Positions 5,235 through 64,000 of a stretch of 64,000 nucleotides of DNA are shown here, in pieces. The position numbers and the translations under genes are program-made. The stretch covers positions 1,590,501 to 1,654,500 of the forward strand of contig NZ_CP144374.1 of NCBI RefSeq assembly GCF_040451425.1. Reading direction: 5' to 3'. This stretch comes from Thermodesulfovibrio sp. 3462-1. Its GTDB lineage: Bacteria > Nitrospirota > Thermodesulfovibrionia > Thermodesulfovibrionales > Thermodesulfovibrionaceae. Each line of letters begins with the position of its first letter. Position 1 is the stretch's first letter. The notes beneath the pieces are model-generated. The model saw only the letters and a program-made list of their open reading frames with translations, made no database searches and was not told the origin of the DNA.

Positions 5235-5795
5235 TTATCTTATTGGCATTCCAAAGGCTTTCAATAATGCTAAAGCCTCTTCATCAGACTTAGCTGTTGT
5301 GCATATGGTTATATCAAGTCCGTGTATCATCTCCACTTTATCATAATCTATTTCAGGAAATATAAACTGTTCTTTAATTCCAAAAGAGTAGTTTCCTCTT
5401 CCATCAAAGGATTTTGGTGAAATTCCTCTAAAATCCCTTATTCTTGGTAAAGCAAGAGAAATTAATCTATCTAAAAATTCATACATTCTGTCTTTTCTTA
5501 ATGTAACCTTGCAGCCTATAGGCATTCCTTTTTTAAGTTTAAAAGCTGCCAGCGCTCTTTTAGCCTTTGTTATAACAGGTTTCTGTCCTGTTATTAAAGC
5601 AAGCTGTTTTTCAGCAGCATCAAGAAGCTTTATATTCTGAATTGCCTCTCCCAAAGTAACATGGACAATTATTTTATCAAGGCGAGGCGCCTGCATCACA
5701 TTTTTATAGTTAAACTTTTTCATTAATGCTGGAATTATTTCTTTGTAATATTTTTCTTTAAGACGAGGCACATATTTTTTAGCTTCAGCATTCAT
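5235..5795 (-). CDS. rplE: 50S ribosomal protein L5
   Basis: L5 binds 5S rRNA and contacts P-site tRNA. The 186-residue protein carries the conserved blocks [30 protein letters not shown] and [14 protein letters not shown]. It overlaps the rplX stop by a single base (TGATG), suggesting translational coupling, and precedes rpsN by nine bases. Confidence 0.97.
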
Positions 5796-6112
5796 CAGTC
5801 AATAACCTCCATGCATTTCTTACAAATCCTCAGTTTTCTACCATCTTCTAAAATTCTTGTACCTATCCGAGTAGGTTTATCACATTTTGGGCACATGAGC
5901 ATTACCTTTGATATGTGAATTGGATGCTCTCTTTCAATAATTCCACCCTGTGGATACTTACGCGAAGGTTTCTGATGCTTTTTTACAATATTAACTCCCT
6001 CTACCACTACTTTTTCGTCCTTAGGTATAACCCTAAGGACTCTTCCCTTTTTATCCTTATCTTTTCCTGATAAAACTAAAACTGTATCCCCTTTCTTAAT
6101 CCTTAAACTCAC
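5795..6112 (-). CDS. rplX: 50S ribosomal protein L24
   Basis: L24 is an early assembly protein near the polypeptide exit tunnel. The protein begins [19 protein letters not shown] (KOW motif) and contains a C-terminal four-cysteine segment ([14 protein letters not shown], then CKKC) likely to bind zinc. The chosen GTG start at 6110-6112 has a GGTGGAGG ribosome binding site and gives 105 residues; a longer reading to 6145 would add an atypical N-terminus. Confidence 0.95.
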
Positions 6113-11349: not shown

Positions 11350-12549
11350 TTACTCCAGCACCTCTGTAACTACACCTGCACCTACTGTTCTTCCACCTTC
11401 TCTTATGGCAAACCTCAATCCCTCTTCCATTGCTATAGGTGCTATCAACTCTACTGTGAGATTTACGTTGTCACCAGGCATTACCATCTCCACTCCCTCA
11501 GGTAACTTTATCACTCCTGTTACATCTGTGGTCCTGAAATAAAACTGCGGCCTGTATCCATTGAAAAAGGGTGTGTGCCTACCACCTTCTTCCTTCGTCA
11601 ATACATAAACCTCTGCCTTAAATTTAGTATGTGGCGTAATACTCCCTGGCTTAGCCAATACCATCCCACGCTCTACTTCATCCTTGCCTATACCCCTAAG
11701 CAAAACTCCTATGTTGTCACCTGCTCTTCCTTCGTCAAGTATCTTACGAAACATCTCTATCCCTGTGGCTACTGTCTTGCGTGTCTCCCTTAGTCCCACT
11801 ATCTCTACTTCATCTCCTACCTTTATTATCCCTCTTTCTACTCTCCCTGTAACTACTGTCCCACGACCAGAGATGCTAAATACATCCTCTATGGGCATTA
11901 AAAATGGCTTGTCTATCGGTCTCTCAGGCTCAGGAATGTAGTTATCCAACGCATCAAGTAATTCCTGTATGGGTTTATACTCAGGTGCATTCGGATCTCT
12001 ACTGGAACTCTCCAGTGCTTTCAGCGCACTACCCCTCACTACAGGTATCTCATCACCAGGAAATCCATACTTGCTCAGTAGCTCCCTTACTTCAAGTTCT
12101 ACTAAGTCCAACAGTTCAGGATCATCTACCATGTCTGTCTTGTTCATAAATACTACTATGTATGGCACCCCTACTTGCCTGGCAAGCAGTATGTGCTCCC
12201 TGGTCTGCGGCATTGGTCCATCATTTGCAGCTACTACAAGTATTGAACCATCCATCTGTGCCGCTCCAGTTATCATGTTCTTTATATAGTCTGCATGCCC
12301 AGGACAGTCTACATGCGCATAATGACGCTTTTCTGTCTCATATTCTACATGCGCTGTGTTTATCGTTATCCCCCTTGCTTTCTCCTCAGGTGCATTGTCT
12401 ATCTGATCATAACTCCTGTACTGCGCCATCCCCTTGAGCTCCAGATACTTCGTTATCGCTGCTGTCAAAGTGGTCTTGCCATGGTCAATATGCCCAATTG
12501 TCCCTACATTTACATGCGGCTTCTTCCTCTCAAACTTTGCCTTTCCCAT
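11350..12549 (-). CDS. tuf: elongation factor Tu
   Basis: EF-Tu delivers aminoacyl-tRNA to the ribosome. The 399-residue protein has GTPase motifs GHIDHGKT (G1), the switch [18 protein letters not shown] (G3), NKTD (G4) and GSALKAL (G5), then domains II and III. Codon usage is visibly different from its neighbours, with more G/C at third positions, as expected for a very highly expressed gene or one homogenised with a second tuf copy elsewhere. The start follows an AAGGAGGTAATGG ribosome binding region. Confidence 0.98.
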
Positions 12550-12577
12550 TACCTTCCTCCTTAAAATCTTTAAAACT

Positions 12578-14662
12578 TTATTTGTTATTTCCCTTTATCT
12601 TAGCAATTATCTGCTCTGTAAGATTTTTAGGAACCTCATCATAATGCGAAAACTGCATTGTATATGTGCCTCTACCCTGTGTTTTTGACCTCAAATCAGT
12701 TGCATACCCGAACATTTCTGCCAGAGGAACCATTGCTCTTATAACCTGTGCTTTTCCTCTTTTTTCCATAGACTGAATTTTACCACGTCTTGAATTTAAA
12801 TCTCCTATCACCTCACCCATATAATCTTCTGGAACTACCACTTCTACATCCATAATTGGTTCCAATAAAACAAGTCCAGCTTTTTTACAAGCATCTTTAA
12901 ATGCCATTGAAGCAGCAATTTTAAATGCAAGCTCTGAAGAGTCAACCTCATGATAGGAGCCATCAAAAAGAGTCACCCTTACATCAACAACAGGATATCC
13001 AGCAAGAACTCCTCCCTCCATAGCTTCAACAATACCTTTTTCAACAGCAGGAATGAATTCTCTGGGAATAGTTCCTCCAACAATATTATTCACAAACTCA
13101 AAGCCCTTTCCTCTCTCTAAGGGCTCCACTTCAATCCACACATGTCCATACTGACCACGTCCACCAGTTTGCCTTATAAACTTTCCTTCAGCCTTAGCTG
13201 GCATTTTAATCGTTTCTTTATAGGCAACCTGAGGTTTTCCAACATTTGCTCCAACTTTAAATTCTCGTGTGAGCCTGTCAACAATTATTTCAAGATGAAG
13301 CTCTCCCATTCCAGAAATAATTGTCTGACCAGTTTCTTCATTAAAGCTTACCCTGAAAGAAGGATCTTCCTGAGAAATTTTCTGCAATGAAAGAGATAAT
13401 TTTTCTTGATCTGCTTTTGTTTTTGGTTCTATAGCAACAGAGATAACAGGCTCGGGAAACTCTATGGATTCAAGAACAATAGGATTATTTTCATCGCAAA
13501 GAGTATCTCCTGTTAAAGTATTCTTTAAACCTACGACAGCTGCGATATCTCCTGCACAGATTTCTTTTATTTCTTCTCTTCTATTTGAATGCATTCTAAA
13601 AATTCGTGCAACTCTTTCCTTTATATTTCTTGTGGAATTGTATACATAGCTACCAGATGTTAAAACTCCTGAGTAAACACGCACATAAGTAAGACTACCC
13701 ATGTAAGGGTCTGCCATTATCTTGAATGCAAGAGCTGTCAATGGTTCATCTACACTTGGTTTTCTTGATATTTCTGCCCCATCAAGAGGATTTATTCCTT
13801 TTACAGGAGGAATATCAAGAGGAGAAGGTAAATAATAAACAATTGCATCAAGAAGCATTTGAACTCCCTTATTTTTGAAGGCAGAACCACATAAAACAGG
13901 AGTGAGCTTCATCTGGATTGTTCCTTTTCTTAAGGCAGCCCTTATTTCTTCTGCAGTAATCTCCTCCCCAGAAAGATATTTTTCCATAATTCTGTCATCT
14001 ATGTCACAAAGGGCTTCTATCATTTTTTCTCTATATTTTTTTGCCCCCTCAAGATACTCAGAGGGAATTTCATCTTCTACAAATTTGGCACCGAGAGTTT
14101 CATCGTCGAAATAATAAGCTTTCATTTCAATCAGGTCTATAGGCCCTCTAAAGGTATCTTCTCTGCCAATAGGAATCTGAACAGCAACAGGATTAGCACC
14201 GAGTTTTTCTACCATGCTTTCTATTGACATAAAAAAATCTGCTCCTATTTTATCCATCTTATTCATAAAAGCAATTCTCGGCACTTTATATTTATCAGCC
14301 TGTCTCCAAACAGTCTCACTCTGAGGCTCCACTCCTGCTGAAGCATCAAAAACAGCAATAGCTCCATCAAGCACTCTTAAAGATCTCTCTACTTCAATTG
14401 TAAAGTCCACATGTCCAGGAGTGTCTATTATGTTGATTTTGTGATCTTTCCACATACAGCTTGTAGATGCTGCAGTAATAGTTATTCCACGCTCCTGTTC
14501 CTGAGGCATCCAGTCCATTACTGCTGTGCCTTCGTGGACCTCGCCTATTTTATATGTAACGCCGGTATAATACAGAATTCGCTCAGTAGTAGTTGTTTTA
14601 CCAGCGTCAATATGAGCCATAATACCAATATTTCTCGTCTTCTCAAGTGGGAATCTTTCCAT
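12578..14662 (-). CDS. fusA: elongation factor G
   Basis: EF-G is the GTPase that drives translocation and, with RRF, ribosome recycling. The 694-residue protein has G1 [16 protein letters not shown]3 DTPGHVDF and G4 NKMDK, followed by domains II-V, including domain IV ([15 protein letters not shown]) that reaches into the decoding site. Its length and canonical motifs indicate the primary fusA rather than a paralogue. It lies between rpsG and tuf, the standard str order. Confidence 0.97.
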
Positions 14663-54539: not shown

Positions 54540-55208
54540 TCAGCCAGACTCTGCAACTTTTTTTAAAATAATTGAAATAACTTCTTGAGCTGTAAGCTCT
54601 GATGTATCAATGTAAAAGGCATCTTCACTGATTCTTAAAGGAGCATCTTTTCGGGATGAGTCTCTTTTATCTCTCTCAATAACATCTCTTAATGCTTCAT
54701 TAAAGGTTATTTTTTTGCCTGATTGTATGAGTTGCTCAAATCTTCTGCGAGCTCTTACTTCTGCAGACGCATCAAGATAAAATTTTCTCCATGCATCAGG
54801 AAAAACAACTGTTGTCATGTCTCTGCCTTCAGCAACAGTATCCATTTTCTCTGCGAAACTTCTTTGTAGGGGTAGTAAAAAATCTCTAATTATTTTTTTA
54901 GCAGAAAGCTCTGATGTAGCAGCACCAACTTTGGGGTCTCTTATTAATTCTGAGACATCTTCATCATATAAAAAAACTCTGCCATTTTCATAGTAAATTT
55001 TTATATTTAAAAGTTCTTTTTCTATTTCATGCTCTGTTAACAGTGAAAAATTATCAATGTGCTGAAAATTCCTGAAAAAATAATATGCCACAGCCCTGTA
55101 TAAAGCACCAGTATCAAGATATTGAAAGCCCAGTGCTTTAGCTACCTGTCTTGAAACAGTGCTTTTACCAGCACCTGAAGGTCCATCAATTGCTATAACC
55201 CGTTTCAT
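54540..55208 (-). CDS. cmk: cytidylate kinase
   Basis: Cmk phosphorylates CMP and dCMP. The 222-residue protein starts KRVIAIDGPSGAGKSTVSRQ (P-loop), has the CMP-binding LDTGALYRAVAYYF and EGRDMTTVVFPDAWRKFYLD, and the lid ERDKRDSSRKDAPL. It overlaps aroA by four bases, and the cmk-ispH-rpsA order is standard. Confidence 0.95.
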   Translation of the reverse strand: MKRVIAIDGPSGAGKSTVSRQVAKALGFQYLDTGALYRAVAYYFFRNFQHIDNFSLLTEHEIEKELLNIKIYYENGRVFLYDEDVSELIRDPKVGAATSELSAKKIIRDFLLPLQRSFAEKMDTVAEGRDMTTVVFPDAWRKFYLDASAEVRARRRFEQLIQSGKKITFNEALRDVIERDKRDSSRKDAPLRISEDAFYIDTSELTAQEVISIILKKVAESG

Positions 55209-56497
55209 CTCTGAAGCGTTTCAAGCAGATGATAAAATTCAGGAAATGATATGTCCACACAATCTGCATCTTTTATCACGGTTTCACCCTCTGCAATAAG
55301 TGCTGCTATGCTCAGTGCCATTGCAATTCTGTGGTCTTTATAGGAGTAAACTTGAGCTCCCATGAGTTTACATGGACCAGTAATTTCTACTCCATCATCC
55401 AATTCTTTTATATCAGCACCCATTTTACTGAGTTCTATGGTCATTGCTCTTATTCTGTCTGATTCCTTTGCTCTTAAATCTTTGGCATCCCTTATAACTG
55501 TAGTTCCTTCAGCCTGAGTTGCAACAACACACAAAATTGGAAATTCATCAATAAGTTTTGGAATAATCTCACCCTGAACAGTAACAGCTTTAAGAGCACT
55601 GGCGGTTTTCACTAAGATATCTCCCACAGGCTCACCTGCCTGTTGTTTTAAGTTAAAAATTTCAATTTTTGCTCCCATTAATTTTAAAACTTCAAGAAAG
55701 CCTGTTCTTGTCTCATTCAGGCAAACATTTTTAATCACCACTTCAGAGTCTGCAACAAGACAGGCTCCTGCAATAAAAAAAGCTGCTGATGAGAAATCAT
55801 TTGGTATGGTTATATCAAAGGGATTAAGAGGATACTTTGGTGGGGTTATTTTTATTGTGTTATTGTTTATTTCAAGCTTAACCCCCATGCTTTTAAGCAT
55901 CTTCTCAGTGTGATCTCTGCTTTTATGTGGTTCTGTGACAGAAGTTTCACCCTCTGCAAAAAGAGCTGCAAGCAAAATTGCACTTTTTACCTGGGCAGAA
56001 GCAATGGGCATATTATAGTTTATTCCTTTTAGACAACCTCCTTTTATCACAAGAGGTGGGAATTTGTTAGAATCTCTACCTAAAATGTGCGCTCCCATAA
56101 GATTTAATGGCTCGATAATTCGCCTCATTGGTCTTTGTCTTAATGATTCATCACCTGTGAGAATGCTTAGAAATGGCTGCCCTGCAAGTATTCCGCTAAG
56201 TAGTCTTATCGTTGTTCCAGAATTTCCACAATCAATGACATTGTCAGGCTCTTTCAGGGAGTGTAAACCCGTTGCATTAACTATGATTTCTTTTGTCTCT
56301 GTTATCTGAATATCCACTCCGAGTAATCTCATTGCATTAAGACTGCTGAGAGGGTCTTTTGCCCATAAAAAGTTTTTTATCCTTGAGGCTCCCTCTGCCA
56401 GAGAGGCAAACATAACTGCTCTGTGAGATATGGATTTATCTGCAGGTGGAGTTATCTGTCCTTTAAGTGCTTTCGCTTTTCTAATTACTTTCTCCAT
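55205..56497 (-). CDS. aroA: 3-phosphoshikimate 1-carboxyvinyltransferase (EPSP synthase)
   Basis: AroA catalyses the sixth shikimate-pathway step. The 430-residue protein has PPADKSISHRAVMFASLAEG, DCGNSGTTIRLLSGILAG with the phosphate/PEP-binding residues, and the C-terminal RAKESDRIRAMTIEL. The glyphosate-site segment is NSGTTIRL followed by LTGDESLRQRPMRRI, where the family's class I has GNAGTAMRP, so it is not the enterobacterial class. It is the first gene of the aroA-cmk-ispH-rpsA-sppA unit. Confidence 0.95.
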   Translation of the reverse strand: MEKVIRKAKALKGQITPPADKSISHRAVMFASLAEGASRIKNFLWAKDPLSSLNAMRLLGVDIQITETKEIIVNATGLHSLKEPDNVIDCGNSGTTIRLLSGILAGQPFLSILTGDESLRQRPMRRIIEPLNLMGAHILGRDSNKFPPLVIKGGCLKGINYNMPIASAQVKSAILLAALFAEGETSVTEPHKSRDHTEKMLKSMGVKLEINNNTIKITPPKYPLNPFDITIPNDFSSAAFFIAGACLVADSEVVIKNVCLNETRTGFLEVLKLMGAKIEIFNLKQQAGEPVGDILVKTASALKAVTVQGEIIPKLIDEFPILCVVATQAEGTTVIRDAKDLRAKESDRIRAMTIELSKMGADIKELDDGVEITGPCKLMGAQVYSYKDHRIAMALSIAALIAEGETVIKDADCVDISFPEFYHLLETLQR

Positions 56498-56809
56498 AAA
56501 GTTTTATTATAGCAGAAAAATTCTTTGTTTTTTGAGTTCAAGATTATGCGCCAAGAATACTTAAATCTGCAATCATTTTAGTTAAGCAGATTTTAAATCT
56601 TCCACTCCTTTGCCTTAAAAATCTCTTCTCTACTTATTATTTTACCCTTAATAGATATATTTCTTTTTTCATTTTCTAGGCTTTATTTTATATCTAAGGT
56701 TCAATATAAAACAGAGTGGCTATACCACCTCCTATAGCATAATCTGTGATAAACCCCTTTTTGTTTAAGTTCATTTATTACCTCAAGGGTTTTTCTCATT
56801 GTTTATATT
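56498..56809 (-). pseudogene. nucleotidyltransferase-type gene remnant
   Basis: On the minus strand an ATG at 56797-56799 opens MRKTLEVINELKQKG; dropping one G of a G4 run near 56754 continues ITDYAIGGGIATLFYIEP and then a stop at 56694. The pattern resembles the N-terminus of nucleotidyltransferase-fold (AbiEii/MNT-like) proteins. Further minus-strand fragments (GKIISREEIFKAKEWKI, about 56610-56655) may be its C-terminal end. The rest of this gap down to aroA holds nothing recognisable. It starts just after methylase-tail copy a. Confidence 0.45.
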
Positions 56810-56884
56810 ACCTTCAATTATTTTAATTTCTTCCTCTGTTAAATCATAAAATTTATACACAAATTGGTCAATTTGAGCTTCAAG
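56810..56884 (-). repeat. methylase-tail repeat, copy a
   Basis: 75 bases encoding on the minus strand LEAQIDQFVYKFYDLTEEEI followed by KIIEG, the C-terminal signature of type IIG/Eco57I-like DNA methyltransferases. A TAA stands directly before it in frame, so it is not attached to a protein. It lies 11 bases ahead of the nucleotidyltransferase remnant start. Confidence 0.8.
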
Positions 56885-56937
56885 TTATTTTTTTTATTTT
56901 TTGATTGCTTTCTTAGTTGCTATTAGGGAAAGATTAG

Positions 56938-57228
56938 TTAACTTTGTTCTTTTTTATCAGGAGTTAACCATGAAGTTTCCTTCAATCCTTTCTTCAACCC
57001 TTCCCCTTTTTCCGTTAAAAGCGCAGCTTTTGCCCATTGTTTCTTAGAAAAATTGCATATTATATAACAAAAATCAGGCTTATCATAGTTATAACTTCGA
57101 AATATCGCTACTTCATCACCAGATTCCCAATTAGAAATAGATTTTTCGTCTTGGAGGAAAAATGTAGTATCATCTTCTAATGTTATGGAAAAATGCCACC
57201 AACGCCAACCTTTTTCTTTAATTTTCAT
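56938..57228 (-). CDS. hypothetical protein, partner of the AbiU2-like gene
   Basis: A 96-residue soluble protein, rich in aromatic residues (GWRWWHFSITLEDDTTFFLQ), starting six bases after the AbiU2-like gene stop and so co-transcribed with it. No family is recognised. Its small size and position suggest a regulatory or neutralising partner of the HEPN-like protein, but that is only inference. Confidence 0.6.
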   Translation of the reverse strand: MKIKEKGWRWWHFSITLEDDTTFFLQDEKSISNWESGDEVAIFRSYNYDKPDFCYIICNFSKKQWAKAALLTEKGEGLKKGLKETSWLTPDKKEQS

Positions 57229-57234
57229 TAATAT

Positions 57235-58368
57235 TTACTTTTCGGGATATGCAGGTGGTAACCACGGAACTTTAAAAATTGATAAATAATCTCTTCCTTG
57301 ATATACAGGTGTAAGTGATACTAAGTAACCTCCTTCGATTAAAGCGAAAGCCTCTTTAATTACTTCTTCTACTGCATTACGAATTTCTTCAAGAGAGATT
57401 GAAACGGATATGTCAAAACTCTCACGAGAAGGATGAGCAATATATTTGTCACAAATAATCCATAATTTACCAAATATTAGCTTCAAACAAATTAATTCAA
57501 TAGATTTATTTATTGTATTTAAATTTGTTAATATGTTGTTATCGATTTCATCAAGTTTTTTCTTAATATCTGGATAATATTTATATAAACAAAGATCTAA
57601 TGAGGTTTTATAATAAGCATCTCTCTCATTTTCAGGTAAATTTTCAGGCAAGATAACTTCTTCGGGATGTTCCTTTTCGACTCGCTCATAAAGATGTGTT
57701 TCTATAGAATTAAATAATCTTATCCTCTTTTCAATAATCTCTTGATATTCCTTTTTAGCGTTCTCAATTTTTTGTTTCAGCCCATCTATTTCTTCCAACT
57801 TCTCATTTAAATCTTTCCTATTTAAGTTCTCAAGTGACTCTATCACTTCTTTTAGTTTTTCTTTAAGATCATTCACACTTTTTCGAAAGTTGTCTATTTC
57901 ATTTTTAAAAATTTTAGCAGTCTCAGGAGCGAAAATGTCAAAAATAAAATTCTCAATGTTTTCATGAGTTCGGCATTCTTCTAATATTTTAATTATATTC
58001 TCAATAAATTTTTTAATTGTGAATTCTCTTATTTCTTTAAATCCACACATCACATGTATTAAATTGTTAATTTCTTTATTATTGTTAATTTCTTTTTCTT
58101 TCTCCATTAATTTCTCCATTAATAAGATGGGTAAGTTTATATCACCATGTCTAAGGGATATTGCGGAGGGTTGTAGATATTTTCTTAATCTCATCAAAGC
58201 AGCTTCTATGTAGAATCTACGAATATGTTCAATAGGAGTAAGATCCATTGAGTGTAGGTTAGGATTATTTTTAAACATCCAAATAATATCATCTAAAATT
58301 TGCCAGCTAAAAAATGTATAAAATATGTCATTCCACATAATTTTCCATTTATCCAGCTTCTCATTCAT
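57235..58368 (-). CDS. HEPN AbiU2-like abortive infection protein candidate
   Basis: From the ATG at 58366-58368 (AAGGAG ribosome binding site) the product is about 377 residues. The ends resemble AbiU2-type HEPN proteins: WNDIFYTFFSWQILDDIIWM with EHIRRFYIEAALMRLRKYLQ near the N-terminus and WIICDKYIAHPSRE near the C-terminus. Residues about 150-250 form a long charged coiled coil inserted between them, which is unusual. HEPN proteins are typically RNases in phage defense; a clear RxxxxH motif is not seen, so activity is uncertain. The upstream sequence is methylase-tail copy b. Confidence 0.6.
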   Translation of the reverse strand: MNEKLDKWKIMWNDIFYTFFSWQILDDIIWMFKNNPNLHSMDLTPIEHIRRFYIEAALMRLRKYLQPSAISLRHGDINLPILLMEKLMEKEKEINNNKEINNLIHVMCGFKEIREFTIKKFIENIIKILEECRTHENIENFIFDIFAPETAKIFKNEIDNFRKSVNDLKEKLKEVIESLENLNRKDLNEKLEEIDGLKQKIENAKKEYQEIIEKRIRLFNSIETHLYERVEKEHPEEVILPENLPENERDAYYKTSLDLCLYKYYPDIKKKLDEIDNNILTNLNTINKSIELICLKLIFGKLWIICDKYIAHPSRESFDISVSISLEEIRNAVEEVIKEAFALIEGGYLVSLTPVYQGRDYLSIFKVPWLPPAYPEK

Positions 58369-58375
58369 GTTCTTC

Positions 58376-58441
58376 TCCTTCAATTATCTTTATCTCTTCC
58401 TCTGTTAAATCGTAAAGTTTATAAACCAATTGGTCAATCTG
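58376..58441 (-). repeat. methylase-tail repeat, copy b
   Basis: 66 bases encoding QIDQLVYKLYDLTEEEIKII followed by EG on the minus strand. Its last bases (GAAGGAG) also serve as the ribosome binding site of the AbiU2-like gene. Upstream, in the same frame back to about 58590, GDNKKYEPYKEERKNNI and LDLFNLSINDAAPDSKEDLY read as protein-like but without a start, so they are probably a remnant. Confidence 0.8.
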
Positions 58442-58614
58442 TCGTTATATAGATCTTCTTTTGAATCAGGAGCCGCATCATTTATAGATAAATTAAAAAG
58501 ATCCAATCTTTCAAGTCTGGTATCGATATTAATATTATTTTTTCTTTCTTCTTTATAGGGCTCATATTTTTTATTATCGCCTTGCTCTCTTATTCAATTC
58601 TCCTCAAATTTGAT
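58442..58614 (-). other. gene remnant joined to methylase-tail copy b
   Basis: This 170-base stretch contains an open minus-strand frame with LERLDLFNLSINDAAPDSKE that runs directly into tail copy b without its LEA residues. No start codon with a ribosome binding site is seen. It looks like the fused end of a lost gene. Confidence 0.4.
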
Positions 58615-59460
58615 TTATCGTACCATAATTTTTAACAGTTGAAAAATTGCGGCCTGTAAAACTTGCCAACATATTTTAGCTGTATGCTCATCGGGTTTAA
58701 ATTTTGATACCTGTTGTTGATATGGATGAATATAATTCCTAAAATCTCTTAATACGTGACTAAACTTTTTAACATCTTCACCGAGTAAACCAATAGAGTG
58801 TGCAACATCAATAAAGTTTGCAAGTGTCCAATCTTGAAATTGCAAAACTTTGCCGTCTTTTTTGGGACTAGATGTTGATGAATTAAACTCTTTAGGCATT
58901 TTTTTAGCAATCCCTAGCAGAATCCCTTCAAGAGTGCTACCACATAAAAAAATTACTGCTAATGATGCTTTTGCATTTAAACATTTTTTTATTTCATCAA
59001 TCCGTTGACTTAAAATTTCTGTAATTGAACTATCAAGGCCGAGTTTATTAAGCTGTATCTCCTCAAATTCTTGATTTAAAAAGACATCTTCGGTTATAAT
59101 CCGTTGATTTATTTGTGGTATACCTAATAATCTGTTAGCAATTTTTTTGCATTCTTCGTAAAGTTTATTTTTTCCTTCTTCTATTCTTTCATTATTCAGT
59201 AGTGTCTTCGTCTTCCAATATTCCAATAAATCACTAATTAATTTCCCGACAATAGAATCTGATTCCTGTTCCCAAAAAGCGCGAAGTCTATTTGCCTTAG
59301 ATCCACCCCTATAAGAGTATTTTTTATGGTATATATCTTTTTGAACACTGCTGAATACAAACTCTTGAAAAGTACGATTAGAAAAATCAAGCACATAACC
59401 GCTTTCCATCCGAAAAAGCCTTTCTAATTTTAGTTTATCAGAATAATTTAATGTTGCCAT
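58615..59460 (-). CDS. abortive-infection-like protein with C-terminal HEPN motif (AbiJ-type)
   Basis: The 281-residue protein has an N-terminal domain beginning LNYSDKLKLERLFRMESGYV then LDFSNRTFQEFVF and SKANRLRAFWEQE, a combination I associate with AbiJ N-terminal-type domains of defense proteins. The C-terminal half is all-helical and contains LRDFRNYIHPYQQQ, where Arg-x6-His/Arg-x3-His resembles the HEPN RNase site. It follows the methylase-tail ORF by four bases. No antitoxin is evident. Family name is tentative. Confidence 0.6.
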   Translation of the reverse strand: MATLNYSDKLKLERLFRMESGYVLDFSNRTFQEFVFSSVQKDIYHKKYSYRGGSKANRLRAFWEQESDSIVGKLISDLLEYWKTKTLLNNERIEEGKNKLYEECKKIANRLLGIPQINQRIITEDVFLNQEFEEIQLNKLGLDSSITEILSQRIDEIKKCLNAKASLAVIFLCGSTLEGILLGIAKKMPKEFNSSTSSPKKDGKVLQFQDWTLANFIDVAHSIGLLGEDVKKFSHVLRDFRNYIHPYQQQVSKFKPDEHTAKICWQVLQAAIFQLLKIMVR

Positions 59461-59464
59461 AAAG

Positions 59465-59686
59465 TTATCTGTTATTTTTTTTATTATAACTTGCTACAAT
59501 TTTTATTTCTTCCTCAGTCAAGCCGTATAATTTATAAACCAGCTGGTCAATTTGGGCTTCAAGTTCTTTTACTTTTGCTTGCTTTGTTTGGTCTGTTTCA
59601 TAGTCAGATGATTGGGTGAGGGAGAGGATTTGGGAGACAAGGGATTCTATCTGCTTGGCTTCAGGTTGTGCTTTTGTTTTCGTCAT
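59465..59686 (-). CDS. orphan C-terminal methyltransferase fragment (tail copy c)
   Basis: A 73-residue frame starting MTKTKAQPEAKQIESLVSQI and ending with LEAQIDQLVYKLYGLTEEEI, the longest of the four tail copies. It matches the last about 65 residues of type IIG/Eco57I-like DNA methyltransferases (IESLVxQIL...LEAxIDxLVYxLYGLTEEEI). Without a catalytic domain it cannot methylate DNA. It overlaps the end of the winged-helix gene by 26 bases. It could be a translated remnant or merely a translational relay to the next gene. Confidence 0.6.
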   Translation of the reverse strand: MTKTKAQPEAKQIESLVSQILSLTQSSDYETDQTKQAKVKELEAQIDQLVYKLYGLTEEEIKIVASYNKKNNR

Positions 59687-60227
59687 AAAATCTTCTTCCC
59701 TTTTCAGTTAATTCCCAGATACCCCGTGGAGAATCAGATCGCAACAAACCTTCATTAACCATAGTGTTCCTTGCCCATTGAGCAGTATTTTCCCATCGCT
59801 TCTGTTTCGAATTAGAAGGAAGGGGTTCATAATCATATTTATTTAAAATATTCTTCATTTTATCATGCACAAGTTTTAAAACATCTTTCATTTCTGCTTT
59901 TCCACCGAGTTCAATAAGCGATTCTAAAATGGGTATTACAAATTTATCCTCAGGGGTTCTCAAACCGTGTTTTAACTTACTTTTTACTCCCCTTTTTTGA
60001 ACCTTCACAGACACTCTTTCACTAAAAATTGTCTGCCATTCCTTTTGAAGGGATTTAACCTTTTCCCTGAAAGATTTAAGACGCTCGCCATATTCAATAA
60101 GTGATTTTGCTTTATCAAAAGCTTGGGCTTTAAAAGCCTCTTCCCCTTCCTTGCTTATGACATTAAAGACCTCTTCAATCTCCTCAAGCAAGATTTCAAA
60201 AGCAGTGTTTACTTCGTTTTTATTCAT
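59661..60227 (-). CDS. Mrr_N-like winged-helix protein
   Basis: The 188-residue protein has an N-terminal coiled coil (about 1-75) and a C-terminal winged helix: LRTPEDKFVIPILESLIELG, then MKDVLKLVHDKMKNIL and NTMVNEGLLRSDSPRGIWEL. This matches the N-terminal DNA-binding domain of Mrr-type restriction enzymes, here without a nuclease. It probably binds DNA, either as a regulator or as specificity component. The GGAGGAGG ribosome binding site is provided by methylase-tail copy d. Confidence 0.65.
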   Translation of the reverse strand: MNKNEVNTAFEILLEEIEEVFNVISKEGEEAFKAQAFDKAKSLIEYGERLKSFREKVKSLQKEWQTIFSERVSVKVQKRGVKSKLKHGLRTPEDKFVIPILESLIELGGKAEMKDVLKLVHDKMKNILNKYDYEPLPSNSKQKRWENTAQWARNTMVNEGLLRSDSPRGIWELTEKGRRFYDENKSTT

Positions 60228-60238
60228 AAAATACCTCC

Positions 60239-60313
60239 TCCTTCAATTATCTTTATCTCTTCTTCTGTTAAATTATAAAGTTTATAAACCAATTGGTCAA
60301 TTTGGGCTTCAAG
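60239..60313 (-). repeat. methylase-tail repeat, copy d
   Basis: 75 bases encoding LEAQIDQLVYKLYNLTEEEI followed by KIIEG on the minus strand; an in-frame TAA precedes it as in copy a (both share ATAACTTGAAGC). It ends in GGAGGAGG, the ribosome binding site of the winged-helix gene. Confidence 0.8.
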
Positions 60314-61030
60314 TTATTTTATCTTTTTGAAACATTATAACACCCATATATGTTTTAACATTTTCAATCTTAATATCTAGATAATTGAGTTTGAAAGATT
60401 TGATAAGTTTGTTTTCATTTAATGGTGGATGTTCTTCAAAAATGAAATTCAGAAAATTTCTGATTTCATCGCCGTCCGAATAAACCATAAAGAAAGGCAT
60501 TATTATATTGAAAAACATCTCCATCTTTCTCTGAACACCAATACCATCAAAATTCATTATTCTCTTTACTGCATCTTTTGGTTCTTTATTATTTAGTTCC
60601 ATTTTAATACGCTCTAAAAAGAAATGAACAATACCTTCTTCAATTGTTTCTGATAGAAGCATTGATATTCCTTTAATCCTTTTCTCAGGAAAGTTTGCTG
60701 GTCTTATAGCCTTATAGTTCCAGACGGATTTATCCATCTTTAAAGAAAAATCAAAATCCTCTGGCAATCCTTTTTTTATCATCTGTAAATCCTGCTCTAT
60801 ATAAAAGGGCTTTTTCTATAATTTGCCTTTCCTTTAATTTCTTTATTTCAGCATAAGGAGTAATGAGTGCAAGTTCTAAAAAATTTACCTTATTACTAGG
60901 ATATCCAAGAGAGAGCATAATTTCTCTGTATAATGCTTCATCAGGCAGGGCAATTTTTAACAAGTTCTGCATCCTCTGTTTTTTCCGTTCAAGCCAGCGG
61001 TTGCCAAGTTGTGAAATATCCATCTTCATA
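60309..61030 (-). pseudogene. DUF2851-type gene, frameshifted and N-terminally short
   Basis: Two overlapping minus-strand frames make one protein: MDISQLGNRWLERKKQRMQN to RAGFTDD (ending 60751) and KKGLPEDFDFSLKMDKSVWN, then YKAIRPANFPEKRIKGISML (to 60309). They are separated by a run of seven A (60771-60777 on the plus strand as T); with six A the frame is continuous. Motifs SLGYPSNKVNFLELAL and RPANFPEKRI are as I recall for DUF2851, whose N-terminal half is missing here. The C-terminus runs into methylase-tail copy d. Confidence 0.6.
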
Positions 61031-61081
61031 ATGTGCAATTATTGTGCAATTGATGTGCAATATGTGCAATCAATGTGCAAT
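61031..61081. repeat. five short direct repeats (ATTGCACAT)
   Basis: Five copies of atgtgcaat (one as ttgtgcaat) start at 61031, 61042, 61053, 61062 and 61073, spaced 11, 11, 9 and 11 bases. They cover the stop codon of the AlbA_2 gene and the start of the DUF2851 gene. The helical-turn spacing resembles iterons or a multi-site operator. Confidence 0.8.
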
Positions 61082-62419
61082 TTCATAGAACGCTCCCGCA
61101 CCTTTTTTACCACTTTCTTTTAATATTCCTTTGACTACTAATTCTGATAGATCCTTATTTGCAGTGTTTCTATGGCAATCATTTATTTTCTGATATTCCT
61201 TATTTGTAATCTTTCCTTTTTGTTTTACATACATAACTGCCTTTATCTGTCTTTCATTCAAGCCCATTTTTCTTAAATTCTCTTCGGTGTAAATATCTTT
61301 ATAGAAGATTACAGAAAAAGCTCCTATGCCTTGCTCATAATTGATGAAATCTGGTTCTGGCAATCCGCTTTCTTTACATAGTTCTACCATCTTTATAGTT
61401 CCTGAACCCCATGATTCTATCAAACCAGCGTAATAAAAAACAGTTGCTATTTGAGGGTTTCTTTGATTTGCCTGATGCTGTCTTTTTAAATCATCAGGAG
61501 TCAAAGGAGGCATCAGTTTTCCTAAATTCCAAAATTCAATTTTATCGTCAAAAATTTTGATTTGTATCGGAGCAGTTCCGAGGTAATCTTTATGAATTAA
61601 AGCGTTGATCACAGCTTCTCTTAATGCATCAAGAGGATATTCCCATATATCGCGTCTTGCAAGACCTTCAAGTGAAAAATCTTTGACAGAGGTATCAAAT
61701 TTTACACTTATATGTTTTTTAATTGCTTCTACTGTGTGGTCAAGTTGCTCAAATAGGTTTCCTTCAATAATTATTGTGTCCAAAATATCTATTGGGGTTT
61801 TAAAACGACCAACCTTTGTGTAAGCAGATGGAAAATAAAACTGGGGATTTTTACCAAACAGTAATACTGCTCCACGGGTTAGCTTACCATCTTTTGTATA
61901 TAAATTGAGTTTTTTGAGTAGTTCTTCTTTTGACTTGATACTTTTTATCAAGGGTAAGCGAACTTCTGCAAGAGAGATGAATTTTTCTATGGTTTCGTCA
62001 TCTAAATCTTTCTCTTCTGCGTCAGAAGGGAGTTTATCCCATGTTTGCCCCGATTTTTCAAGCAGAAAGGAAGAAAGTTCCAAACCTGTGAGCTCTTGCG
62101 TTGTGGAGCCACTTCTTACAAATATTTTCCCTTCATAAAAAACAGGAAAGGTGGAAGGCAAAACTTCTATGACGATAACATCTTTCCCTTCTTGATTTTC
62201 AACACTTACAAAAGGTGTAATAAAGAGCTTGCTTTTTATTTTGTTTGGTATATCTTCAAGCAACTTTTTCGCATCGTTTACCCCAACAATTTTTCCTTTA
62301 TCGTCTATCCCTATGTAGAGTTTCCCTCCCGATGAATTCGCAAAAGCACAAACTGTTTTCAAATTTTCATCAGACCATCTGGATTTCAGTTCTACATTTT
62401 GATTTTCTTTCTCAATCAT
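61070..62419 (-). CDS. AlbA_2/Schlafen-type putative DNA-binding protein (RecG-related family)
   Basis: The 449-residue protein starts with the AlbA_2 domain (NVELKSRWSDENLKTVCAFA, then NSSGGKLYIGIDDKG), has the conserved DALREAVINALIHKDY segment and WNLGKLMPPLTPDDL typical of 'ATP-dependent DNA helicase RecG-related' proteins, and ends with a winged helix (LNERQIKAVMYVKQKGKITN). Despite the common label there are no helicase motifs. Such proteins often act as transcriptional regulators or in defense loci. It sits 93 bases downstream of the nuclease gene. Confidence 0.85.
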   Translation of the reverse strand: MIEKENQNVELKSRWSDENLKTVCAFANSSGGKLYIGIDDKGKIVGVNDAKKLLEDIPNKIKSKLFITPFVSVENQEGKDVIVIEVLPSTFPVFYEGKIFVRSGSTTQELTGLELSSFLLEKSGQTWDKLPSDAEEKDLDDETIEKFISLAEVRLPLIKSIKSKEELLKKLNLYTKDGKLTRGAVLLFGKNPQFYFPSAYTKVGRFKTPIDILDTIIIEGNLFEQLDHTVEAIKKHISVKFDTSVKDFSLEGLARRDIWEYPLDALREAVINALIHKDYLGTAPIQIKIFDDKIEFWNLGKLMPPLTPDDLKRQHQANQRNPQIATVFYYAGLIESWGSGTIKMVELCKESGLPEPDFINYEQGIGAFSVIFYKDIYTEENLRKMGLNERQIKAVMYVKQKGKITNKEYQKINDCHRNTANKDLSELVVKGILKESGKKGAGAFYEIAH

Positions 62420-62512: not shown

Positions 62513-64000
62513 TTAAACAAAAATTGTAAAAATATTTCTGGATACAGCTAACGCTTTAACTTGATTATCTGCAGTAATTAAAATAGCGTTGTATTCAATA
62601 CAGGTATTTATAATTAAATCATCCTTCTCTTGTGAAGTAAGCTTTTTAAATTTATCTGCTCTAAATTCTCCAACCTCTTTAAGTTTAATCCTGCCTATTG
62701 AAGCAAATTTCCCAAGTCTTTTAAATTCTTCTTTACCACCAGATGTATCACATTCAAATCTAACAATGCCAGGGATTAATATTGTAAAATCCTCAAAAAA
62801 ACTTTTTTTATTCAAAGCTTTTGAAATCAAACCTCTATTAATTATATTGCTATCGGGGATAATGAAACCACAATAATATCTTAATGTAAAATCCAAATTT
62901 TCTATTGTATTATTACAACTATGACATTTAGGAATAAATCTATCATCTTTATTAATAAGTTGAACAGATCTTGAAGCCGTTCCACAATGAGGACAAACTA
63001 CGGATAAAGCTCTAATATCTAATTTACCTAAATTAAATTGTTGCTTAAAACATTCAGTGAGAAGATCTTCATTAAGGGGGGGAATTTCTTTTCTTATTTC
63101 TTCTTTTTTTCCTTCAATTTCTCTGACTGATGAATATGAGCGCCTGATAAACCATAGCCAATCTTTACCAGATTTATACCATTTTTCAAGCCATTCAATA
63201 GTTTGCCCATCCCCAGCATTCCCAGAACCTATTGATAAATTTTCTATCTTAAACTCCTCTTTTTCATTTATGGTTTTAATTACCATTTCTCTATTCCTTT
63301 TTGCGATTAATGAAGCGATTCGTGCTTCTAAATATTTATCATCTGCTTTTTGAGAAACTACAATTTCCGCCCCTTTCTGTGCTAAAAAGTTTAGGAATCT
63401 TCTTAGAGTTTCACCTATGCCATAATCATCGATCACTATTCTACACTCTTCTATAAGAATATCTCTAAAAAATGTATTGAGTATCCTTTGATAAACTACA
63501 TCCATAATTTTGTTAATATTATATCTATCTATATCCCATGGAGGTATTTTTTCCTCTATAAATTTCAATCCCTTGTTTTGAAAATTAGCAATTTGCCTGA
63601 AAATTGTATCCCAGTAGTCAAAATTGTGTTTTTTCTTTGTATCAGCAGTGGATATGATTCTTTCTAATTCTGAAAAGAGAATACTTGGAATAATTGCGCC
63701 AACCAAATGCATATGTCCGATAATTTCGCCTTTCCCAGTTTCATCAAAACCTATAAGAAATTTTTTTGTAGGTTGTGTAAAGAGAGAACCAACTATAGAG
63801 TCAATGTAATTCCAAACATTTTCCACTGCAGGATCACGGGAGTTTGAAGGGGTACTATAAAGAGTTCCTGTTGAATAAAAAGTAAAAGTACTATCCGAAA
63901 ATCTTACTCTCCATTTTTCAGAGATATTCTTTACTTTTTCTTCTTCGCCACCCATTTTTAAGAGGTATTCTCTTATGTTTTCAGCTTTTTGGTTATCTAA
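62513..64000 (-). CDS. RNase HIII-like / zinc-ribbon / PIN fusion nuclease, partial (N-terminus outside window)
   Basis: The frame is open to the right edge, so the gene is cut; 495 codons are visible. In order: a substrate-binding-like domain (VRFSDSTFTFYSTGTLYST), an RNase HII/HIII-type core with FLIGFDETGKGEIIG (Asp-Glu-Gly-Gly pattern), CRIVIDDYG and QKADDKYLEARIASLIAKRN; a zinc ribbon with VVCPHCGTA and CHSCNN; and a PIN domain with IIPDSNIINRG, VRFECD, KDDLIINTC and ILITADNQ carrying four acidic residues. Two unrelated nuclease folds in one chain is unusual. Its setting beside HEPN and AlbA_2 genes suggests defense. The MGG at 63955 could be an alternative start. Confidence 0.75.
   Translation of the reverse strand, partial: LDNQKAENIREYLLKMGGEEEKVKNISEKWRVRFSDSTFTFYSTGTLYSTPSNSRDPAVENVWNYIDSIVGSLFTQPTKKFLIGFDETGKGEIIGHMHLVGAIIPSILFSELERIISTADTKKKHNFDYWDTIFRQIANFQNKGLKFIEEKIPPWDIDRYNINKIMDVVYQRILNTFFRDILIEECRIVIDDYGIGETLRRFLNFLAQKGAEIVVSQKADDKYLEARIASLIAKRNREMVIKTINEKEEFKIENLSIGSGNAGDGQTIEWLEKWYKSGKDWLWFIRRSYSSVREIEGKKEEIRKEIPPLNEDLLTECFKQQFNLGKLDIRALSVVCPHCGTASRSVQLINKDDRFIPKCHSCNNTIENLDFTLRYYCGFIIPDSNIINRGLISKALNKKSFFEDFTILIPGIVRFECDTSGGKEEFKRLGKFASIGRIKLKEVGEFRADKFKKLTSQEKDDLIINTCIEYNAILITADNQVKALAVSRNIFTIFV

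Follow-up and report, generated by a model that had tools for sequence, protein, structure and literature searches.

In integron arrays, genes and repeats alternate in one orientation, with a head gene at one end and many toxin–antitoxin (TA) cargos. Restriction-modification (RM) genes of Helicobacter reportedly insert with long target duplication (Nobusato et al. 2000, cited in PMC3874152). Orphan rhs-CT/rhsI modules are displaced fragments that lie behind a full-length main gene, on the same strand and with no translation start (PMC3967940), and the minimal mobile element of Neisseria consists of whole-gene cassettes exchanged at one place by homologous recombination alone (PMC3898611). Here we analyse a 64,000-nucleotide stretch of Thermodesulfovibrio DNA (the window), corresponding to G000:C1:1590501-1654500 of the single-contig 1.82-Mb source genome G000, in which copies of the 3′ end of a DNA methylase gene (tails) stand in front of unrelated genes. 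We interpret these copies as displaced methylase 3′ ends accompanied by downstream partner genes, the tail being a recurrent joint for incoming RM-operon fragments, and give this interpretation a probability of about 0.72. No prior description of methylase-tail arrays was found in the open-access literature, subscription papers being outside the scope of the search.

The window contains four tails, all on the minus strand, as the sequence-only reading had claimed: tail 4 (60239-60313, LEAQIDQLVYKLYNLTEEEIKIIEG), a displaced methylase 3′ end without a start codon that heads an Mrr_N unit; tail 5 (59495-59563, LEAQIDQLVYKLYGLTEEEIKIV), which has a longer upstream linker within a frame spanning 59465-59686; tail 6 (58376-58444, QIDQLVYKLYDLTEEEIKIIEG); and tail 7 (56810-56884, LEAQIDQFVYKFYDLTEEEIKIIEG), the final copy, adjoining aroA. 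A gene or gene remnant follows each of the four on the same strand, which broadly upholds the claim that each leads directly into another gene. The ATAACTTGAAGC junctions said to be shared by two copies are both present; past the tail, nothing but AAATAA in A-rich DNA is common to them, and as evidence this is weak. Three further tails lie past the right window edge, at G000:C1:1654530 (tail 3, 1654530-1654604), 1656573 and 1660471, making seven same-strand tails within 13 kb, and an eighth lies outside the array at G000:C1:1238782. These eight, seven of them clustered, were recovered in a search of the genome against itself with E = 6e-10 to 2e-6, which is above chance. The sequence-only reading had also held that no methylase body exists. 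That proved wrong: an intact 1040-amino acid methylase (G000:C1:1663738-1660616) is found 6 kb beyond the window edge, with the three further tails in between and the array directly downstream of it. The apparent lack of a methylase body was thus an effect of the window edge.

The head gene is a predicted type IIG/Eco57I-type RM enzyme with an N6-adenine methyltransferase core, an NPPY motif and an Eco57I domain (PF07669, 1.3e-33; PF02384, 2.4e-10; PADLOC REase_MTase_IIG PDLC03596, 9e-289). Its matches to PDLC03596 and to the Pfam Eco57I family agree with the known type IIG (Eco57I-type) operon of methylase, helicase and nucleotidyltransferase, whereas its own target-recognition domain (TRD) and tail are unlike the tails in the array. 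The tail corresponds to the final ~25 codons of Eco57I/type IIG methylases, counting the stop codon, and lies on the C-terminal side of the TaqI_C specificity domain. In the 1064-amino acid methylase of a congener, G012, TaqI_C occupies residues 870-993 and the tail about 1036-1062, and all seven array tails align with the end of this protein. At the nucleotide level, tails 6 and 7 are 88.6% and 83% identical, respectively, to the 3′ end of the G012 gene. The linker of tail 5 (IESLVSQILSL...) resembles the methylase linkers of G012 and of a second RM locus in G000 (G000:C1:1238764-1242334; L011 4765-8335), where the methylase is frameshifted just ahead of its tail. A sequence search of the PDB with the G012 methylase gave no match. 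In other loci (L119 5100-5205; L066, L073), the linkers just ahead of methylase tails carry in-frame palindromic-repeat inserts such as CCCCTCCTTAGCAAGGAGGGG.

Could the tails simply be separate small conserved proteins? The peptide is conserved, with a ratio of nonsynonymous to synonymous differences (pN/pS) of 0.19. Three of the four window copies, however, lack a start codon: at 56810, 58376 and 60239 the frame runs from its upstream stop to the motif without one, the frames being 33, 27 and 29 codons long with 0-1 codon ahead of the motif, and these tails are therefore not small genes. Some stand-alone tails at other loci do have a possible start codon. Moreover, the 5′ ends are variable (~22 to 220 codons) and the peptide is the C-terminus of ~1000-1300-amino acid methylases. 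We regard the small-protein explanation as extremely improbable and, for want of start codons, reject it.

Along the minus strand, the locus reads SNF2-type helicase, frameshifted nucleotidyltransferase, intact methylase, a stack of tail–cargo units with defence-type genes, and then aroA, with most units opening on a copy of the methylase's last ~75 bases. The units are, in order, tail 1–Mrr_N; remnants; tail 2–TPR; tail 3–RNaseHII/PIN–AlbA_2–DUF2851; tail 4–Mrr_N; tail 5–DUF4145-like; tail 6–378-amino acid protein–96-amino acid protein; and tail 7–remnant.

This arrangement is not confined to G000. Across 396 genomes of the phylum, taking as stand-alone any tail in a frame under 250 amino acids, 74 of the 150 tails among those listed stand alone (62 in frames under 130 amino acids). 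As a control, the methylase core motif gave 59 matches in the same genomes, none standing alone and none in a frame under 652 amino acids (Fisher 5e-13, with the G000 tails left out). This bears on plain decay, in which RM operons arrive and are deleted or pseudogenised, tails happening to remain. Degraded RM operons ending in a tail do exist, at L049 (where a helicase start is fused to the tail), L047 and L050, but decay should leave other fragments too, which 0 of 59 core motifs against 74 of 150 listed tails contradicts, and arrays of three to seven tails alternate with intact genes. We reject random decay on the core-motif control, and think an origin by plain decay improbable.

The polarity is constant. 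In all 10 cases in which a stand-alone tail has an intact methylase on its own strand no more than 15 kb away, that methylase is upstream, and a second group of genomes, taken from the phylum of a Thermodesulfobacteriales metagenome-assembled genome (MAG), adds three methylase-then-tail cases of the same polarity and one tail pair. A second family of methylase tails (KALDDIIFDALGLTEEERKEV...) behaves alike, with 18 of 27 copies standing alone and two arrays of the same polarity, which makes a fixed recombination site in a single tail sequence unlikely.

Evidence that the tail is the joint comes from comparisons between genomes. In G261 an intact methylase is followed by Lon, while in its congener G028 the order is TA pair–tail–Lon; the two are 88% identical over 4.1 kb, starting 14 bp ahead of the tail. 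The methylase of G018 matches that of G151 up to the stop codon (73%, 935 bp), whereas the genes downstream of it match G210 from +10 for 3.3 kb (82%), the TRDs of G018 and G210 being unrelated. Homology blocks between genomes that extend to a tail and measure at least 350 bp number 34, and 33 of them stop there: 17 of 18 downstream blocks begin at the tail and all 16 upstream blocks end at it, and none of the 34 runs for 300 bp or more through the tail on both sides. The downstream blocks are the informative ones, since an upstream block shared by methylases would stop where the gene does in any case. In L058, L068 and L144, from different genomes, the methylases have the TRD and tail in common (69-73% over ~940 bp to the stop) while the downstream genes are unrelated. 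The repeated recombination at the methylase 3′ end put forward by the sequence-only reading thus agrees with where the breakpoints fall, although a homologous agent, with tail identities of 75-98%, is a matter of inference.

Two units of the G000 array have inherited tail and cargo together from methylase operons. A scan with the window Mrr_N protein led to Sulfurihydrogenibium yellowstonense (L082), where an intact 1203-amino acid methylase ends in the tail, and to a Leptospiraceae MAG (L083), where a methylase with one frameshift does so; in both, an Mrr_N gene starts 8-12 bp on. The window protein is 80% and 76% identical to these two, respectively. Tail 4 and its Mrr_N gene together match both loci at 79-80% nucleotide identity over ~630 bp, and the match starts at the left edge of the tail, whereas that between L082 and L083 goes further upstream. 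The tail-3 unit likewise matches the end of the second G000 methylase (L011), and the match runs past the stop to take in ~50 nt at the start of the RNaseHII/PIN gene. Methylases with the same ending and the same gene behind them, which the sequence-only reading led one to expect in other loci, are therefore found for Mrr_N (intact in Sulfurihydrogenibium, frameshifted in the Leptospiraceae MAG) and for the RNaseHII/PIN start. Tail 2 and the tail belonging to the second methylase are 94% identical over 80 bp. Across all loci, at least eight cargo families come behind intact methylases in some places and behind stand-alone tails in others, and in both settings the cargo starts close to the stop (median 11 and 31 nt, respectively).

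The age of the copies can be judged from their codons. Stand-alone tails within arrays differ mostly at third codon positions, with a pooled proportion of synonymous differences (pS) of 0.57, a nonsynonymous proportion (pN) of 0.11 and pN/pS of 0.19. High pS with low pN means that the tails diverged as coding sequence before being trapped, most simply, to judge from these substitutions, inside methylases. Flanking housekeeping genes compared between G000 and G012 have a pS of only 0.31-0.40. As between recent duplication and independent origin, the copies are not one recent duplication, tail divergence exceeding that of the species split, and for 25 of 46 stand-alone tails the nearest relative lies in a different genome, others being recent local copies. 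The codon positions and the divergence of the two species exclude simple duplication in situ for most copies, and we reject tandem duplication in situ as the origin of the whole set, retaining it for a few recent cases.

The same figures bear on insertion with long target duplication, in which cargo would insert just behind the stop of a resident methylase and duplicate its last 50-190 bp. This mechanism has already been proposed in the RM literature for Helicobacter, whose RM loci likewise carry long direct repeats. It would account for the form of the tails, which have sharp right edges at the stop and left edges varying from -50 to -190, and near-identical repeats surround cargo in L119, L131 and L064. 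Against it, tails here and in most arrays have a pS of 0.57, beyond the species split, with the protein conserved; 25 of 46 are closest to the tail of another genome; and tail and cargo arrive together from foreign methylase operons. The repeats here, in contrast to those of Helicobacter, are pre-diverged and travel with their cargo. Near-identical repeats derived from a resident target are absent from the G000 array and occur in only a few other loci such as L119. Target duplication seems to us an unlikely origin for the array.

The chromosomal site of the array also varies between related genomes. The aroA gene (55205-56497, minus strand) forms its right boundary, and the tyrA–aroA neighbourhood is kept in eight Thermodesulfovibrio genomes, adjacent or with insertions (loci including L053, L160-L163, L166 and L167). 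The site is empty in five congeners, and holds a TA-type pair in G008, an RM operon in G012 and an RM operon with the array in G000. In G012 the orthologous methylase still ends in an intact tail; G000 and G012 are 77% identical over 3.9 kb, as far as the NPPY motif of the methylase, after which the TRDs differ. On these comparisons, the tyrA–aroA junction is an insertion hotspot in the genus. Related genomes thus carry differing gene cassettes in one place both here, in eight genomes, and at the Lon site of G261 and G028.

Taken together, these results point to displaced methylase ends and suggest how they were assembled. Incoming pieces of RM operons would be linked up at the conserved last ~50-90 bp of the methylase gene (the tail, up to and including the stop codon), through recombination that is either homologous or illegitimate and homology-facilitated. 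The methylase with its TRD on one side of the joint, and the downstream gene on the other, would change independently of one another, and every accretion would leave the old tail, so that tail–cargo units stack downstream of the resident methylase in operon orientation. We infer that the joining is done by recombination of one tail with another, either homologous or homology-facilitated, as could happen following DNA uptake; the cargo genes would be expressed from the RM operon. For homology-facilitated illegitimate recombination there are precedents in competent bacteria and in conjugation of E. coli (PMC3240628).

Several points weigh against this interpretation. No recombination event has been observed, and many tails are 75-85% identical over ~75 bp, poor for homologous recombination; some joints may be illegitimate. 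For several array cargos (the TPR, 281-amino acid and ~378-amino acid proteins), the loci compared gave no instance downstream of an intact methylase. Recent-looking local duplicates exist (L119, 98% over 88 bp; L131, 97%; L064, 97%). Finding tails by protein similarity biases pN downward, although it cannot create high pS, and most of the comparison genomes are fragmented MAGs.

REP-associated IS200-like genes or remnants (TnpA_REP type, by eye) stand behind a tail or tail B in L053, L060, L131 and L134 and on the reverse strand of L010 at 5750-6019. As an agent, TnpA_REP/IS200-like elements were rejected: they lie behind the tail in four loci (L053, L060, L131, L134) and are absent from most arrays.

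The tail might alternatively have been kept as an expression element, TTGACC–17 nt–TATAAT in tails 3 and 4 driving the cargo. IDQLVYKLYN in AT-rich codons (L010 tails 1-4 and 7, minus strand) does spell this near-consensus sigma70 promoter, and of the sigma70-like sites in 18.5 kb (L010) the two that score highest fall in tails 3 and 4, with weaker ones in 1, 2 and 7. The observed score of 8.78 is, however, near the 8.21 expected from the amino-acid motif in the codons of the genome; intact methylases score alike, and the signal is gone in GC-richer genomes with the same arrays. The synonymous-codon null thus shows that the signal follows from the amino-acid motif, and there is little to recommend a promoter role.

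Turning to the cargo (all on the minus strand), tail 4 is followed by a 188-amino acid Mrr_N-domain protein (59661-60227; PF14338, 5.5e-18). This name given by the sequence-only reading was borne out, while its AbiU2-like and AbiJ-like assignments found no Pfam or PADLOC support. The cargo of tail 5 is a 281-amino acid protein (58615-59460), DUF4145-like at E = 0.008, below the gathering score. Tail 6 heads a ~378-amino acid coiled-coil protein (57235-58368), with no Pfam or PADLOC family above threshold, and behind it a 96-amino acid open reading frame (56938-57228), again with no family above threshold. The remnant frame behind tail 7 (56640-56800) looks nucleotidyltransferase-like by eye, from sequence reading alone. 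The tail-3 unit comprises a 502-amino acid RNase HII and PIN-like protein (62513-64000, on to G000:C1:1654521; PF01351, 9e-16), an AlbA_2/Schlafen-HATPase protein (61070-62419; PF04326, 6.9e-21; PF13749, 2.5e-21) and a DUF2851 gene in two frames (60309-61038; PF11013, 1.3e-5 and 1.6e-3, neither reaching the gathering score), whose end overlaps tail 4. Relatives of DUF2851 occur beside the helicase–tail locus in L047 and near Mrr_N in L109. The 502-amino acid protein combines its RNase HII domain with a CPHCG motif resembling a zinc ribbon and a C-terminus with weak similarity to PIN, and a remnant of the start of its gene also lies behind the second G000 methylase. Between tails 1 and 2 (L010 about 11900-13270), a stretch on the opposite, plus strand resembles, by eye, a photolyase-type gene, with DUF3800-like fragments alongside. 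In other arrays, cargo named by eye from translations includes the TA-type pairs DUF4258/DUF2283, HicAB, DUF433/DUF5615 and UPF0175/PIN, together with zeta-type kinases, DUF1016, DUF3800, and OLD-type and other AAA ATPases.

By analogy, the arrays appear to work most like orphan rhs modules and minimal mobile elements, as a homology-anchored cassette exchange. Orphan rhs-CT/rhsI (and cdiA-CT/cdiI) modules likewise combine short homology to the main gene with cargo, downstream, on the same strand and without start codons. Their fragment is the toxin-bearing C-terminus, and recombination yields a new fusion protein, whereas here it is the last ~25 codons with unrelated cargo downstream; because the tail carries the stop, recombination changes the downstream gene and not the protein. 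Switching of orphan rhs modules has been shown by experiment, while the tail arrays are known from sequence. The minimal mobile element resembles them in placing different whole-gene cassettes at one place, but there a cassette is replaced in a slot that two conserved genes flank; in the present arrays a mobile RM gene supplies the anchor with its 3′ end, and units accumulate. An integron cassette array shares the one-orientation gene–repeat order, the head gene at one end and the many TA cargos, and differs in that the repeat here codes for protein. The open reading frame maps of the G000 array revealed no integrase gene, no systematic search having been made.

It is a tentative suggestion, to which we attach a rather low probability, that the arrays act as a working reservoir. 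Recombination between the methylase tail and a downstream tail would excise or shuffle units and put a distant TA or defence gene behind the RM promoter, the methylase 3′ end serving as an integrase-free attachment site for defence cassettes. The arrays bear on the open question of how single genes are gained and exchanged in defence islands without recombinases, for they contain a joint that is defined and can be tested, namely the final ~75 bp of the methylase gene, and one exchange after another can be read from them. They are relevant to specificity switching too, since the TRD and the downstream gene change independently at the tail joint. As a search key, a stand-alone methylase tail marks whatever gene comes straight after it as a candidate defence or TA gene.

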